Source of the DNA: Hoeflea prorocentri
GTDB taxonomy: Bacteria; Pseudomonadota; Alphaproteobacteria; Rhizobiales; Rhizobiaceae
Direction of reading: 5' to 3'
Length of the DNA: 64,000 nt
NCBI RefSeq assembly: GCF_027944115.1
Contig: NZ_JAPJZI010000002.1
Span: forward strand, 124,001 to 188,000
Part shown: positions 28,728 to 59,014 of the stretch, one piece after another
How the letters are laid out: each line of letters starts with the position of its first letter
Numbering within the stretch: the stretch's first letter is position 1
Notes under the pieces: model-generated
The model's input: only the letters and a program-made list of their open reading frames with translations
Told to the model about the DNA's origin: nothing
The model's database searches: none
Translations under genes and position numbers: made by a program

Positions 28728-28857
28728 TAATCAACATTTTTCGGGTAATCGCACATCCGGGATACCCATGGCGACAGAACCCGACAACATCCCGTTACGC
28801 GCGCAAACGGCTTGCGCAATATATCGTCATGATTGCAGGCATCTTTTCAGGCAAGAG

Positions 28858-51503: not shown

Positions 51504-51629
51504 TGCTGTCTCCCAGAAATAATATTGCGACTATCGTCGGCATGCGCTTGCCGCCGGCGTTAACGTCAAGTTGGATCGGCAGGACCGGCACGGTTCAATT
51601 TAGTCCTGTCACGCATTAGGTTTATAGAC

Positions 51630-54565: not shown

Positions 54566-55291
54566 ATGAGTAAAGTTGCAGTTGTCACGGGCGGAACGCG
54601 AGGCATCGGCGCCGCGATTTCGGTTGCCCTCAAGGAAGCCGGCTACAGCGTCGCCGCCAACTATGCGGGCAATGACGAAAAGGCCAATGCCTTCAAGGAA
54701 GAGACGGGAATTCCCGTCTATAAGTGGGACGTTTCGGACTACCAGTCCTGCGCCGACGGGATTGCCAAGGTGGAAGCCGATCTCGGGCCGGTTGCGATCC
54801 TGGTCAACAATGCCGGCATCACGCGCGATGCCATGTTCCACAAGATGACACCGGAAAACTGGAACGATGTGATCAGCACCAACCTGACGGGTCTGTTCAA
54901 CATGACGCACCCCGTCTGGCCCGGCATGCGTGAGCGCGGCTTCGGACGCGTAATCAACATCTCTTCCATCAACGGTCAGAAGGGTCAGATGGGGCAGGCA
55001 AACTATTCCGCCGCCAAGGCCGGTGATATCGGCCTGACCAAGACATTGGCTCAGGAAGGCGCCGCCAAGGGCATCACCGTGAATGCCATTTGCCCTGGCT
55101 ATATCGGCACCGAGATGGTGCGGGCCGTGCCCGAGAAGGTTCTCAACGAGCGCATTCTGCCGCTGATCCCGGTCGGCCGTCTGGGCGAGCCTGAAGAGAT
55201 TGCGCGCTGTGTCGTCTTCCTGGCATCGGATGATGCCGGTTTCATAACCGGCTCGACCATATCAGCCAATGGTGGGCAATATTTCGCCTGA
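54566..55291 (+). CDS. phaB: Acetoacetyl-CoA reductase (PhaB)
   Basis: PhaB reduces acetoacetyl-CoA to (R)-3-hydroxybutyryl-CoA with NADPH. The 241-residue short-chain dehydrogenase has TGGTRGIGAAISVAL, NNAGIT, and the catalytic Ser-Tyr-Lys (ISSINGQKGQMGQANYSAAKAG) with PGYIGTEMV. It has a strong ribosome site, GGGAGG, six bases before the ATG. The PHB synthase gene phaC is not in this window. An intrinsic terminator follows. Confidence 0.96.
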   Translation: MSKVAVVTGGTRGIGAAISVALKEAGYSVAANYAGNDEKANAFKEETGIPVYKWDVSDYQSCADGIAKVEADLGPVAILVNNAGITRDAMFHKMTPENWNDVISTNLTGLFNMTHPVWPGMRERGFGRVINISSINGQKGQMGQANYSAAKAGDIGLTKTLAQEGAAKGITVNAICPGYIGTEMVRAVPEKVLNERILPLIPVGRLGEPEEIARCVVFLASDDAGFITGSTISANGGQYFA

Positions 55292-55308: not shown

Positions 55309-55341
55309 AAAAAGGCGGCGTCCGATGGGCGCCGCCTTTTT
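55309..55341 (+). terminator. Intrinsic terminator after phaB
   Basis: AAAAAGGCGGCG (55309-55320) pairs with CGCCGCCTTTTT (55330-55341) around a nine-base loop and ends in a T-run. It is a strong rho-independent terminator closing the phaA-phaB unit. Confidence 0.92.
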
Positions 55342-55540
55342 GTTTTCCGATTCGTTTTTCGTCGTCGGCCCCTTGGCGCCGGTCAGTGCGTATTAACTTT
55401 TTTCATGACGTGACAGCGTCTGTTGTTAACGATTGGCCCTGCCCGGCACGTCATACGAGGGCCTCCAGCCGTCCTGACTTGTGGCTGAGCCGTTGCGGCG
55501 GGATAGATGTTGTGTGGACAAAACAGGAACGTGTGCCGGT

Positions 55541-55589
55541 CAGCGATTCGTCGCCGTTTCGTTCCGCCTTTGATCGTATTGTTAACGCA
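55541..55589. repeat. Direct repeat, copy 1 (GATTC... GTTAAC)
   Basis: The 28 bases from 55541 match those from 55825 at 27 of 28 positions. Nine variable bases follow, and both copies then read ATTGTTAAC. The two copies lie 284 bases apart in the same direction. Each copy begins with a GATTC CcrM-type site and ends with a GTTAAC palindrome. Confidence 0.85.
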
Positions 55590-55824
55590 TATCGCGAAAA
55601 TTCGGTATTTTCCCGTTTAGGAACCGTTAAGTTTTTGCGAGCGTTTACAGGCTGTTAACCATAATGTTCGGATCGGTCAGGCACCTTGAGGCAAATCGTT
55701 AACGCTGACAGTCCAAATTCGGCATTATCTGCAATTCGGGGTCGACAGCCGATTCAGCATCTAGTGGTGGCTTTGTCGCGCAGGCGCAGATTTTGCCGTG
55801 AACAAACCCTGAATCTTGATGAGT

Positions 55825-55874
55825 CAGTGATTCGTCGCCGTTTCGTTCCGCCCCTGTTCCAATTGTTAACCGCA
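55825..55874. repeat. Direct repeat, copy 2
   Basis: This is the second copy of the 49-50 base repeat, with the same GATTC start, the shared GTCGCCGTTTCGTTCCGCC core and the ATTGTTAAC end. It lies about 80 bases before the helicase start codon. Confidence 0.85.
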
Positions 55875-55951
55875 GAGATGAAATTTGCCGTGTGCAGCAC
55901 CATTTGCCGTGGTAAGAACCCCGCAATCCAATCGCAGATGTTTCACGTTTG

Positions 55952-58900
55952 ATGCTCCAATCCACACAGCAAGACAACAGGGCGGCCGTCCACAGCGGAC
56001 GCGGGGTAACCGCGGTGCTCGGGCCGACAAATACCGGCAAGACCCACTATGCCATCGAGCGCATGGTGGCGCATGGCAGCGGGGTGATCGGCCTGCCTTT
56101 GCGGCTGCTTGCCCGCGAGGTCTATGAGCGCATCTGCGAAAAGGCGGGGCGGGCCAATGTTGCGCTCATTACCGGCGAAGAAAAGATCAGCCCGCAGGGC
56201 GCGCGGTATTCCGTCTGCACCGTCGAAGCGATGCCGAAGGAAACGGACGTCGAGTTTGTCGCCATCGACGAGGTGCAACTGGCCGGCGACCTGGAGCGCG
56301 GGCATGTCTTTACGGACCGGCTCCTCAATCTGAGGGGCCGCGAGGAAACGTTGCTTCTGGGCGCGGCAACAATGCGGCCCATCCTTGAAAGCTTGCTGCC
56401 CGGCCTGACCGTGGTCTCGCGGCCGCGGCTCTCGCATCTTGCCTATTCGGGATCCAAGAAGATCACCCGGCTGCCGCGCCGTTCGGCCGTCGTGGCCTTT
56501 TCGGCCGACGAGGTTTATGCCATCGCCGAACTGATCCGCCGCCAGCGCGGTGGCGCCGCTGTTGTGCTAGGCGCCTTGAGCCCTCGAACCCGCAATGCGC
56601 AGGTGGCGCTCTATCAGCAGGGCGACGTCGAATATCTGGTGGCAACCGATGCCATCGGCATGGGGCTCAATCTCGACGTTGATCATGTCGCCTTTGCCCA
56701 GGACAGAAAGTTCGACGGCTACCAGTTCCGCAATCTGAATCCGACCGAACTCGGCCAGATCGCCGGCCGCGCCGGCCGCTATATGCGGGACGGGACCTTT
56801 GGCGTGACCGGGCGGGTCGACCCTTTCCCCGACGAGGTTGTCGAACGGATAGAGAGTCACGATTTCGAGCCGCTCAAGGTACTGCAGTGGCGCAGCAAGA
56901 TGTTCGACTTCTCATCGCTCAACGATCTTTGCGCCAGTCTGGACGAAGCGCCGACACGGCAGGGGCTTACACGGGCGCTGCCCGCGGTCGACAGGCAGGC
57001 ACTCGATTATCTGTCCCGCGATAGCGATGTGGTGCGGATGGCCAGGGGACCTGAGGCGGTTGAGCGGCTTTGGGATGTGTGCGCACTGCCCGATTACCGC
57101 AAAATCGCGCCGGCACAGCATGCCGATCTGATTGCCACAATTTTTTGCGACATTGTCGAACAGGGCCATGTGCGCGAGGATTATGTTGCCGAACAGGTGC
57201 GGCGGGCGGACCGGACCGACGGGGAAATCGACACGCTGTCGGCGCGCATTTCGCAAATCAGAACCTGGACATACGCGGCAAACAGGCCCGGTTGGCTTGC
57301 GAATCCGTCACACTGGCAAGAAAAGACGCGCGAAATCGAGGATCGGTTGTCGGATGCGTTGCATGAAAGGTTGACGAAACGCTTTGTTGACCGCAGGACA
57401 TCTGTGCTCATGAAGCGGTTAAGAGAGAACGCTATGCTTGAAGCTGAAATCGGCGTCGATGGGGACGTTTTTGTCGAGGGACACCATGTCGGACAGTTGA
57501 ACGGATTCCGGTTCACGCCCGATTCCAGTGCCGAGGGTCCGGACGCCAAGGCGGTGCTTGCGGCGGCCCAAAAATCTCTGGCGCTGGAGTTCGAGGCGCG
57601 CGCGGCGCGGCTGCACGCATCCGGTAACAATGATTTTGCATTGTCTTCCGACGGGTTCGTCCGTTGGATGGGTGATCCGATTGCGCGCCTTGCCGAGAGC
57701 GACAATATCTTGCGTCCGCGGGCAGTCCTGTTAGCCGACGAACAATTGACGCAGCAAGCACGTGACGTGGTCTCGGCGCGTATCGAGCGTTTTGTCGGAC
57801 ATCACATCGGGACCGTCCTCAAGCCGCTTGATGACCTGGCTGCCGCCGAAGACCTTGAGGGCCTTTCCAAGGGGTTGGCTTTTCGTCTGGTGGAAGCCTT
57901 CGGAATTTTGTTCCGGCGGGATGTCGCCGCCGATGTAAAAGCGCTCGATCAGGATGCGCGCGGCACGCTGCGCCGTTACGGCATTCGCTTCGGTGCCTAT
58001 CACGTGTTCATGCCGGCGCTGCTGAAACCGGCTCCTGCGGAGATGATCACACTCTTGTGGTCACTGCGAAATGATGGATTTGACAAGCCGGGATATGGCG
58101 AAATCACATCAGCGCTGGCGGCCGGCCGGACATCGGTTGTTACGGATCCCTCCTATGAACGGGAATTTTACCGGCTTGCCGGATTCCGCTTCCTGGGCAA
58201 GCGCGCGGTGCGGATCGATATTCTTGAGCGGCTCGCGGATATCATCAGGCCGCTTTTGCAATGGAAAGAGGATGCGGGGCCGCGGCCGGAGGGCGCCTAT
58301 GACGGTCGCCGGTTCGTCACGACCCCGGCCATGCTCTCCATACTCGGCGCCACCGCGGATGATATCGAGGAGATTCTCAAGGGCCTTGGCTATCGGTCGG
58401 AGCAGGTCAGTGCAGAAGAAGCGGAGGCCCACCTGGTAGCGCTGGATGCAAAGGCCGCAGAGGCTGGCGCGAAACCTGACGCGACTGTGGCAACAGATGG
58501 GGCAGCGAAAGACGTCAAGGCCGAGGCCGAACCGTCGGCAAAGCCAGAAGAAACTGCCGGTGCCGATGAGGCGGAAGCGCAAAAGGCCGAAACGGAAATC
58601 GTGGTCACTGAAAATGCAGTGGCGAATTCGCCACCGGAAGAGGCGGCTTCGCCCGATGCAAATGCGCCAGAGGCAGAAGAGGCTGACGATGGTGCCGTTT
58701 CTGCAAAGACTGACGAAGGGGAAGCCGAGCCACCCAAGCCTGTCCTCCTGTGGCGCCCGGCCGGACGTACCGATGGTCAGCGTGGCCGTGGCCGCCATCA
58801 TAATCAGCGCAAGGGAGCCGGTCCGGGAAAGCAGCAGGGCAGGCACCGCGATGGCGAACGCGGACCCAAAAAGGGCAAGGGCAATTTCAAAGGCAAGTCG

Positions 58901-59014
58901 GGCAAGGGCAAGCCGGGAGGCTTCTCGTCCCGTCCGCCGCGCACGAATAAGCCGATCGATCCGGATTCGCCCTTTGCCAAGCTGGCGGCTCTCAAAGAGC
59001 AACTCAACAAGTGA
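55952..59014 (+). CDS. Suv3/MgpS-like DExH-box helicase with basic C-terminal tail
   Basis: The 1020-residue protein has Walker A GPTNTGKTHYAIERM, the DEVQ box (AIDEVQLAGDLERGHVFTDRLL) and the helicase motif VI region QIAGRAGRYMRDGTF, all in a Suv3-type RNA helicase core (1-400). The middle resembles the helicase-associated domains of this family. From about residue 810 the sequence is low-complexity: a Glu/Ala/Lys-rich stretch and then a Gly/Arg/Lys-rich tail (RGRGRHHNQRKGAG, KGKGNFKGKSGKGK) that should bind RNA. The start is ATG 55952; a TTG directly upstream is less likely. The S4-domain gene follows after 17 bases, so both are likely RNA-processing partners. Confidence 0.92.
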   Translation: MLQSTQQDNRAAVHSGRGVTAVLGPTNTGKTHYAIERMVAHGSGVIGLPLRLLAREVYERICEKAGRANVALITGEEKISPQGARYSVCTVEAMPKETDVEFVAIDEVQLAGDLERGHVFTDRLLNLRGREETLLLGAATMRPILESLLPGLTVVSRPRLSHLAYSGSKKITRLPRRSAVVAFSADEVYAIAELIRRQRGGAAVVLGALSPRTRNAQVALYQQGDVEYLVATDAIGMGLNLDVDHVAFAQDRKFDGYQFRNLNPTELGQIAGRAGRYMRDGTFGVTGRVDPFPDEVVERIESHDFEPLKVLQWRSKMFDFSSLNDLCASLDEAPTRQGLTRALPAVDRQALDYLSRDSDVVRMARGPEAVERLWDVCALPDYRKIAPAQHADLIATIFCDIVEQGHVREDYVAEQVRRADRTDGEIDTLSARISQIRTWTYAANRPGWLANPSHWQEKTREIEDRLSDALHERLTKRFVDRRTSVLMKRLRENAMLEAEIGVDGDVFVEGHHVGQLNGFRFTPDSSAEGPDAKAVLAAAQKSLALEFEARAARLHASGNNDFALSSDGFVRWMGDPIARLAESDNILRPRAVLLADEQLTQQARDVVSARIERFVGHHIGTVLKPLDDLAAAEDLEGLSKGLAFRLVEAFGILFRRDVAADVKALDQDARGTLRRYGIRFGAYHVFMPALLKPAPAEMITLLWSLRNDGFDKPGYGEITSALAAGRTSVVTDPSYEREFYRLAGFRFLGKRAVRIDILERLADIIRPLLQWKEDAGPRPEGAYDGRRFVTTPAMLSILGATADDIEEILKGLGYRSEQVSAEEAEAHLVALDAKAAEAGAKPDATVATDGAAKDVKAEAEPSAKPEETAGADEAEAQKAETEIVVTENAVANSPPEEAASPDANAPEAEEADDGAVSAKTDEGEAEPPKPVLLWRPAGRTDGQRGRGRHHNQRKGAGPGKQQGRHRDGERGPKKGKGNFKGKSGKGKPGGFSSRPPRTNKPIDPDSPFAKLAALKEQLNK

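Follow-up and report, generated by a model that had tools for sequence, protein, structure and literature searches.

A tandemly repeated composite unit upstream of a Suv3-like helicase gene in Hoeflea prorocentri, a candidate stress-responsive operator

CtrA boxes have the form TTAA-N7-TTAA, and the word recognised through CcrM methylation and GcrA lies within a sigma-70 promoter; beyond the passages cited below, the roles given here to named regulators are general background. The alphaproteobacterial LexA target is described in a passage of PMC7987155 as GTTC-N7-GTTC, a sequence that can easily overlap GANTC, and part of the same source gives YGAKTCG as the extended GcrA motif. For NrdR, a passage of PMC9110341 places the conserved C/G of the two boxes at 9/18 and 40/49, a separation of 31 bp or about three helix turns, and reports an approximately 50-fold weaker NrdR binding upon inversion of such conserved base pairs. 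An excerpt of PMC12051234 reports NrdR binding with spacers of 14-17 bp and 24-27 bp.

Here we describe DNA in which boxes of LexA, NrdR and GcrA type stand together before a single helicase gene. It lies within the window, the whole 64,000-nucleotide stretch that we analysed (G000:C2:124001-188000), in a genome of 5.04 Mb assembled in two contigs, C1 and C2.

Two tandem copies of a composite unit

The gap between the end of phaB (55291) and the ATG of the helicase gene (55952) measures 660 bp and contains no supported gene (Table 1). We take the helicase to be a relative of mitochondrial Suv3. The gap carries two tandem copies of a composite unit of ~120 bp, with cores at 55545 and 55829. The unit was recognised because of a 48-bp direct repeat, 88% identical (55539-55586 and 55823-55870) and absent from the first-pass annotation, which takes in the GTTAAC at 55581/55865 and the GATTC at 55545/55829. 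In its general form, read from 5' to 3', the unit begins with NrdR-type boxes 1 and 2 (10-base C...G cores, 31 bp apart). GAAC-N7-GAA follows, then GAGTCAGYGATTCG after some 5 bp and TTYGTTC-N7-GTTC after some 6 bp more; a closing TTAAC occurs mainly in the family.

Table 1. Features of the gap between phaB and the helicase gene, in window coordinates.
Feature	Position	Strand	Basis
phaB-like short-chain dehydrogenase, left-hand boundary of the gap	54566..55291	+	Pfam adh_short_C2
Hairpin and T run directly 3' of phaB, probable phaB terminator	55309..55341	+	inverted repeat I1
GTTAAC, 120 bp 5' of unit 1 core	55425..55430	.	word search
Unit 1, distal copy	55503..55586	+	repeat D1; model R1 match 55504-55586, E=2.5e-12
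Unit 1 NrdR-type box ATAGATGTTG, first C lost	55503..55512	+	comparison with relatives
Unit 1 left LexA-type box GGAC-N7-GAAC, one mismatch	55516..55530	.	
Unit 1 central word GTCAGCGATTCG, contains YGATTCG and one GANTC	55539..55550	+	
Unit 1 right LexA-type box GTTC-N7-GATC, second half degenerate (like 33/34 distal units)	55561..55575	.	
GTTAAC closing unit 1	55581..55586	.	
CtrA-type box TTTA-N7-TTAA	55616..55630	.	
CtrA-type box TTTA-N7-TTAACC, includes GTTAAC at 55654 and TTAACCAT at 55655	55644..55660	.	
GTTAAC in spacer 5' of unit 2	55698..55703	.	
Unit 2, proximal copy	55755..55870	+	repeat D1; model R1 match 55787-55870, E=3.1e-20
Unit 2 left NrdR-type box CAGCATCTAG	55755..55764	+	
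Unit 2 right NrdR-type box GCAGATTTTG, 31 bp from left; first C changed to G	55786..55795	+	
Unit 2 left LexA-type box GAAC-N7-GAAT	55800..55814	.	
Unit 2 central word GAGTCAGTGATTCG, contains YGATTCG and two GANTC	55821..55834	+	
Unit 2 right LexA-type box GTTC-N7-GTTC, exact	55845..55859	.	
GTTAAC closing unit 2	55865..55870	.	
Suv3-like helicase gene, presumed target; ATG at 55952	55952..59014	+	DEXQc_Suv3 E=2.3e-28, Helicase_C

The first-pass annotation had drawn attention to short words in this gap. The five GTTAAC (55425, 55581, 55654, 55698 and 55865), the six GANTC (55349, 55545, 55751, 55811, 55821 and 55829) and TTAACCAT at 55655 are all present as it had stated. The two GTTAAC that it had noted elsewhere in the window, at 28857 and 60064, are also present, but they are not the only ones: a third copy occupies 51559-51564, between two longer ORFs. 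Five GTTAAC in 660 bp were reached by none of 3000 order-1 and none of 3000 order-2 Markov sequences modelled on the region, and in 14% of trials under an order-3 model, which carries TTAA words over. Against the region's own composition, at least six GANTC have P = 0.026 (order 1), 0.030 (order 2) and 0.090 (order 3). Window-wide, GANTC is strongly depleted: dinucleotide shuffles average 297 sites, whereas the window has 90.

In 10/10 genus-level loci, the first core is preceded by a GTTAAC at a distance of 119-122 bp. In two-copy loci, GTTAA is found 112-136 bp 5' of the proximal core in 25 of 26 cases, and the full GTTAAC in 21 of 26. The terminal TTAA is kept in 10/10 genus-level, 24/30 family, 5/24 order and 7/14 class units: being seldom kept at the order level, it falls outside the old core. 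Where proximal units have their second GTTC, distal units mostly end differently (CTTTGG-like), so the two copies probably have distinct roles. Just 5' of the helicase start, at 55939-55948, we noticed TGTTTCACGT, identical to one half of the chromosomal parS site; the other half is missing and it does not occur in the aligned genus relatives, so that it is probably there by chance.

Conservation and position before the helicase

The unit keeps its anatomy, its place and its orientation before the helicase gene well beyond the genus. Eight genomes of the genus and two other named relatives carry 2-4 units per gap (four cores each in G005 and G006), the two cores nearest the helicase being 281-284 bp apart in all of them; Hoeflea poritis E7-10 and Nitratireductor sp. 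XY-223 are among the named genus-level relatives. Within the genome of H. prorocentri, the core is found at this locus only (up to 3 mismatches in 24 bases).

A 19-base core pattern with two free positions occurs in 149 of 297 family genomes and 64 of 109 genera, and its reversed control gave 0 in every row shown. In all 30 family loci fetched with this pattern (L038-L067), in which conservation of the core is given by construction, the helicase gene comes next on the same strand, even where phaB is not seen. A near-identical exact expression recovers one core only in 14 of these 30 loci; more degenerate second units are often visible. Alignment A1 comprises 39 units out of 65 that were collected, hand-picked to thin near-identical ones. 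A GAAC/GTTC expression served in part to select its rows, so the invariance of GAAC and GTTC in it is circular.

Model R1, a sequence-only model built from 39 units, matches 91 of 121 genomes of the order and leaves 30 without a match; the helicase is present in 118 of the 121. Matches are listed for 88 of the 91 genomes, and in 87 of these 88 a unit lies upstream of the same Suv3-like helicase, on the same strand. Among the 150 matches listed, 135 share the strand of the helicase gene and lie no more than 2.5 kb upstream of it. The gap that separates the matched part of the helicase from the closest unit has a median of 173 bp (n=87; range 41-826).

When loci were retrieved with nothing but the helicase protein as query, the unit was present in 3/3 further family and 24/26 other-family order cases, against a unit call in 8 of 545 shuffled upstream regions; each helicase search took its best 30 matches, so that these loci lean to close relatives. 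At the class level, R1 matches 18 of 142 genomes, and in the R1 loci examined besides our own the helicase follows in 10 of 11. The class-search loci fetched by helicase alone have the unit in 10 of 29 cases and lack it in 19 of 29, thus the element is not class-wide: it belongs to much of the order and to some further lineages. Chance clustering of short words, for which one could cite the five GTTAAC and six GANTC reached in 14% and 9% of order-3 trials, is already refuted because the unit is conserved, with at least two cores in 10/10 genus-level loci besides its presence across the order; we grant it next to no probability. By the first-pass annotation's own criterion, relatives with the same gene order but no array would refute it. 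We found the opposite, the array being conserved in the relatives examined, and this conservation supports its view of the region as regulatory DNA.

The other 15 of the 150 listed matches lie elsewhere. Thirteen of them, inspected in 10 regions through ORF translations read by eye, have no neighbour gene common to different genera; the remaining two (G345) are on a different contig from the helicase and may be only cut apart from it. In one genus, an extra unit away from the helicase is placed 3' of an ORF that by eye resembles a glutathione S-transferase (L159 and L160; G333:C1:2910780 and G408:C121:38588). G325 has three further units at C3:68585-69202.

Tandem copies and their spacing could also point to a structural DNA site, such as an array serving replication, segregation or methylation sensing, that stands before the helicase by chance. 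There are 2-4 tandem copies in the genus, most family pairs are 271-273 or 281-284 bp apart, and the 13 secondary copies inspected share no neighbour gene between genera. In three order relatives (L145, L146 and L151), GANTC sites 5' of the helicase follow one another at ~21-bp steps and other helix-turn multiples over a stretch of ~200 bp ahead of the unit, a spacing that resembles a phased methylation array. Against such a site stand the orientation and position before one gene, kept in 87 of the 88 genomes with listed matches, the copy distances, which are without helical phasing across the order (R = 0.15 at 10.5 bp), and a contig that has neither a skew switch nor an exact DnaA box. We consider a structural site unlikely.

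Helical phasing of the copies was tried and rejected. In the family, the distances group around ~272 and ~282 bp, which differ by one turn, and any period from 10 to 11 fits them alike (R 0.69-0.72; 49 distances, some of them from own-genus pairs, with 238, 244, 373, 408 and those above 1.6 kb omitted). The order distances show little phasing at any of these periods (R 0.02-0.17). Since both hold, a single old indel explains the spacing equally well.

The suggestion of origin-type DNA, also made in the first pass, is not supported. GC skew is positive across the whole window, and positive in 9 of 10 other samples of C2 (the tenth is -0.001). The C1 samples have positive skew between 0 and 1.84 Mb (with 0.000 at 0.23 Mb), negative skew between 2.07 and 4.14 Mb, and positive skew once more at 4.37 Mb; the sign thus changes between 1.84 and 2.07 Mb and between 4.14 and 4.37 Mb. 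By the usual skew convention, the origin is placed near 4.2-4.4 Mb of C1. Exact TTATCCACA DnaA boxes number four in the genome, with none on C2. The DnaA-box-like word is indeed there, as TTGTGTGGACAAA at 55510-55522, but it is not a consensus DnaA box and overlaps parts of unit 1. The lack of a skew switch at the site and of an exact DnaA box on its contig speaks against an origin of replication here.

Boxes of LexA, GcrA and NrdR type

GTTC-N7-GTTC stands exact in proximal units of 24/24 order, 28/30 family, 10/10 genus-level and 4/14 class loci, including our own, and its N7 varies. These counts rest on the second GTTC, which is not a criterion of the unit caller. In the two-copy loci of family and genus, the second GTTC is present in 27/27 proximal units versus 1/34 distal ones; single units have it in 11 of 13 cases. 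From the start of GAAC to the start of GTTC the distance is 45-46 bp in 78 of 81 called proximal units. The left box is rarely exact (0/24 order and 3/30 family proximal units); with at most one mismatch it is found in 15/24 and 28/30, respectively.

Taken alone, GAAC-N7-GAAC is little enriched in the genome of H. prorocentri (74+108 matches versus 64+58 in the control). The fuller pattern GAACANANNNNGAAC has 23 matches there, 10 forward and 13 reverse, versus one in the reversed control; by Pfam identities, some of these sites precede lexA and dinB or stand between ssb and uvrA. Eleven of the 23 fall within ~63 kb of C1 (G000:C1:2000785-2064027; loci L098-L100, L102 and L106-L116), near the GC-skew switch that resembles a terminus. 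This stretch contains near-identical tandem ORFs of unknown function (L100) and an ORF that by eye is a phage-like repressor (L102): it looks like a prophage or an SOS-controlled island.

At the centre of the units, CGATTCG (55544-55550) and TGATTCG (55828-55834) both fit YGAKTCG. Within 90 bp, GANTC occurs 39 times in the 10 genus-level proximal units and 129 times in the 30 family ones. A GcrA site would not require the central GTCAGYGATTCG to be as constant as it is, so this word may be bound by another factor. A consensus scan, whose scope excludes divergent promoters, recorded 0 sigma-70-like sites in the region. A promoter inside the unit is a weak candidate that we set aside: a -10-like CTATAT, within box 2, is found in 7/30 family proximal units, with TTGTGG upstream in only 2/30.

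CtrA-type boxes are present in the spacer of 8/10 genus-level loci (10/10 under a looser rule) versus 0/16 other two-copy family loci, so that conservation of TTAA-N7-TTAA does not extend beyond the genus level. The first-pass idea of cell-cycle-type DNA therefore stands in part: the YGATTCG words, the concentration of GANTC in the unit and the two CtrA-type boxes between the units agree with it, but the latter are confined to the genus level.

These words could by themselves make up a cell-cycle promoter that responds to CcrM methylation, GcrA and CtrA, in which the LexA- and NrdR-like words would be incidental overlaps. GATTCG is invariant in A1, where this word played no part in choosing the order-level rows; GANTC clusters in the units, CtrA-type boxes recur in most genus-level spacers, and the overlap of LexA boxes with GANTC comes easily according to the passage in PMC7987155. 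However, several units of other orders retain a single GANTC, the CtrA boxes are missing from all 16 other two-copy family spacers, and such a promoter would leave the 31-bp box pair and a GTTC-N7-GTTC of variable N7 unexplained. We judge it improbable.

The length and depth of the conservation would also suit an RNA made from the units, either a leader RNA or the product of a small RNA gene, and a UUCG-capped hairpin can be drawn, by inspection, in Rhizobiaceae units. The order-level units, however, do not keep its 3' arm; the consensus fold is worth -0.03 kcal/mol, with compensatory change in 0/4 pairs. At the gathering threshold, Rfam gave no match in the window region and one tRNA as its sole match across 8 loci. 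An RNA element was rejected because neither covariation nor an Rfam family was found, and an RNA gene seems very improbable. Two coding candidates were rejected as well. The ORFs of the gap (88-113 aa) meet the repeat in a different frame in each copy, and by inspection the Y=T variant creates a stop in one frame. A short leader peptide starting from GTGAACAAA would depend on a GTG that is not kept in the order.

The nrdJ promoter of H. prorocentri has CTATCTTTAG and CAAGATATAG, 31 bp apart. We built an NrdR weight matrix from 18 boxes of 9 nrdJ promoters, taking in each a seed box and the position 31 bp away; the scan of spacings on the helicase side is independent of how these boxes were taken. 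Applied to the helicase units, the matrix finds its best spacing at 31 among 16-60 (mean -4.65; next -11.99), peaks at one position in 32/40 units and reaches p<=0.05 against shuffles in 34/40 proximal units. Of loosely defined box pairs, 28/41 have a spacing of 31. Raw scores are mostly negative, so the boxes of the helicase units differ from those of nrdJ, and the score of our own locus is weak (p = 0.035).

All four C/G positions are kept in 22/30 family, 3/3 further family, 9/24 order, 0/14 class and 0/10 genus-level proximal units, compared with 0.6% of random positions. In the window's genus, three of the four are left in 10/10 genus-level loci. By these counts, support for the NrdR part is good across the family and weak at the window's own locus.

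A candidate operator and the closest known systems

We lean towards reading the region as cis-regulatory DNA of the Suv3-like helicase gene. Judged from its motifs, it would be a multi-input, stress-responsive operator in two tandem copies, most likely repressed jointly by LexA and, ancestrally, by NrdR, with a centre read through methylation. With plentiful dATP, an NrdR tetramer would occupy the box pair spaced at 31 bp, and as long as the cell is undamaged LexA dimers would sit on the two opposed boxes; the helicase gene would be released when DNA is damaged or dNTPs run short. GcrA may read the methylation that CcrM places on the central GATTC and so tie expression to the passage of the replication fork. 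The likely main switch is the proximal unit, which has the exact LexA-type box, with the distal unit in an auxiliary role. Because the window's genus has a degenerate NrdR pair, control by LexA and GcrA, with CtrA locally, may dominate there.

A wider and more tentative reading, possible although we find it doubtful, is that one undescribed composite operator couples LexA, NrdR and CcrM/GcrA signals to a single Suv3-like helicase in much of the order and in some other alphaproteobacterial lineages. If so, the helicase would belong to the core of the alphaproteobacterial replication-stress response without having been recognised there, and a further, unknown factor might bind GTCAGYGATTCG, the constant word that separates the LexA boxes. 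We found no report of a Suv3-like helicase gene as an SOS member in the open-access papers searched. About 100 bp of non-coding DNA kept so deeply, before one gene and often in tandem, is unusual. Should the operator reading hold, an uncharacterised helicase would be assigned to the replication-stress response, and one promoter region would read both SOS and NrdR signals. The unit would then lend itself to testing how damage and dNTP signals combine, and model R1 gives annotation a concrete handle.

Among known systems, GcrA/CcrM-dependent promoters share with the unit the YGATTCG word and the additional GANTC packed around it; they differ in that K is T in the called units, where it is the caller's rule, and in the A1 rows, and in that no -10/-35 is recognised here. 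The two CtrA-type boxes in our spacer resemble TTAA-N7-TTAA, but they are a trait of genus-level loci only. The NrdR operators of ribonucleotide reductase genes, as described in part of PMC9110341 and as seen in nrdJ promoters of the same genus, likewise have two palindromic 10-base C...G cores with an AT centre, 31 bp apart; in contrast, the unit precedes a Suv3-like helicase gene, comes in repeated copies, has LexA-type boxes fused to it and, in the window's genus, is degenerate. With the alphaproteobacterial LexA (SOS) boxes, the unit shares the exact right box of its proximal copy, and the same motif precedes lexA, ssb/uvrA and dinB in this genome; what sets the unit apart is its two opposed boxes, offset by 45-46 bp and flanking GTCAGYGATTCG.
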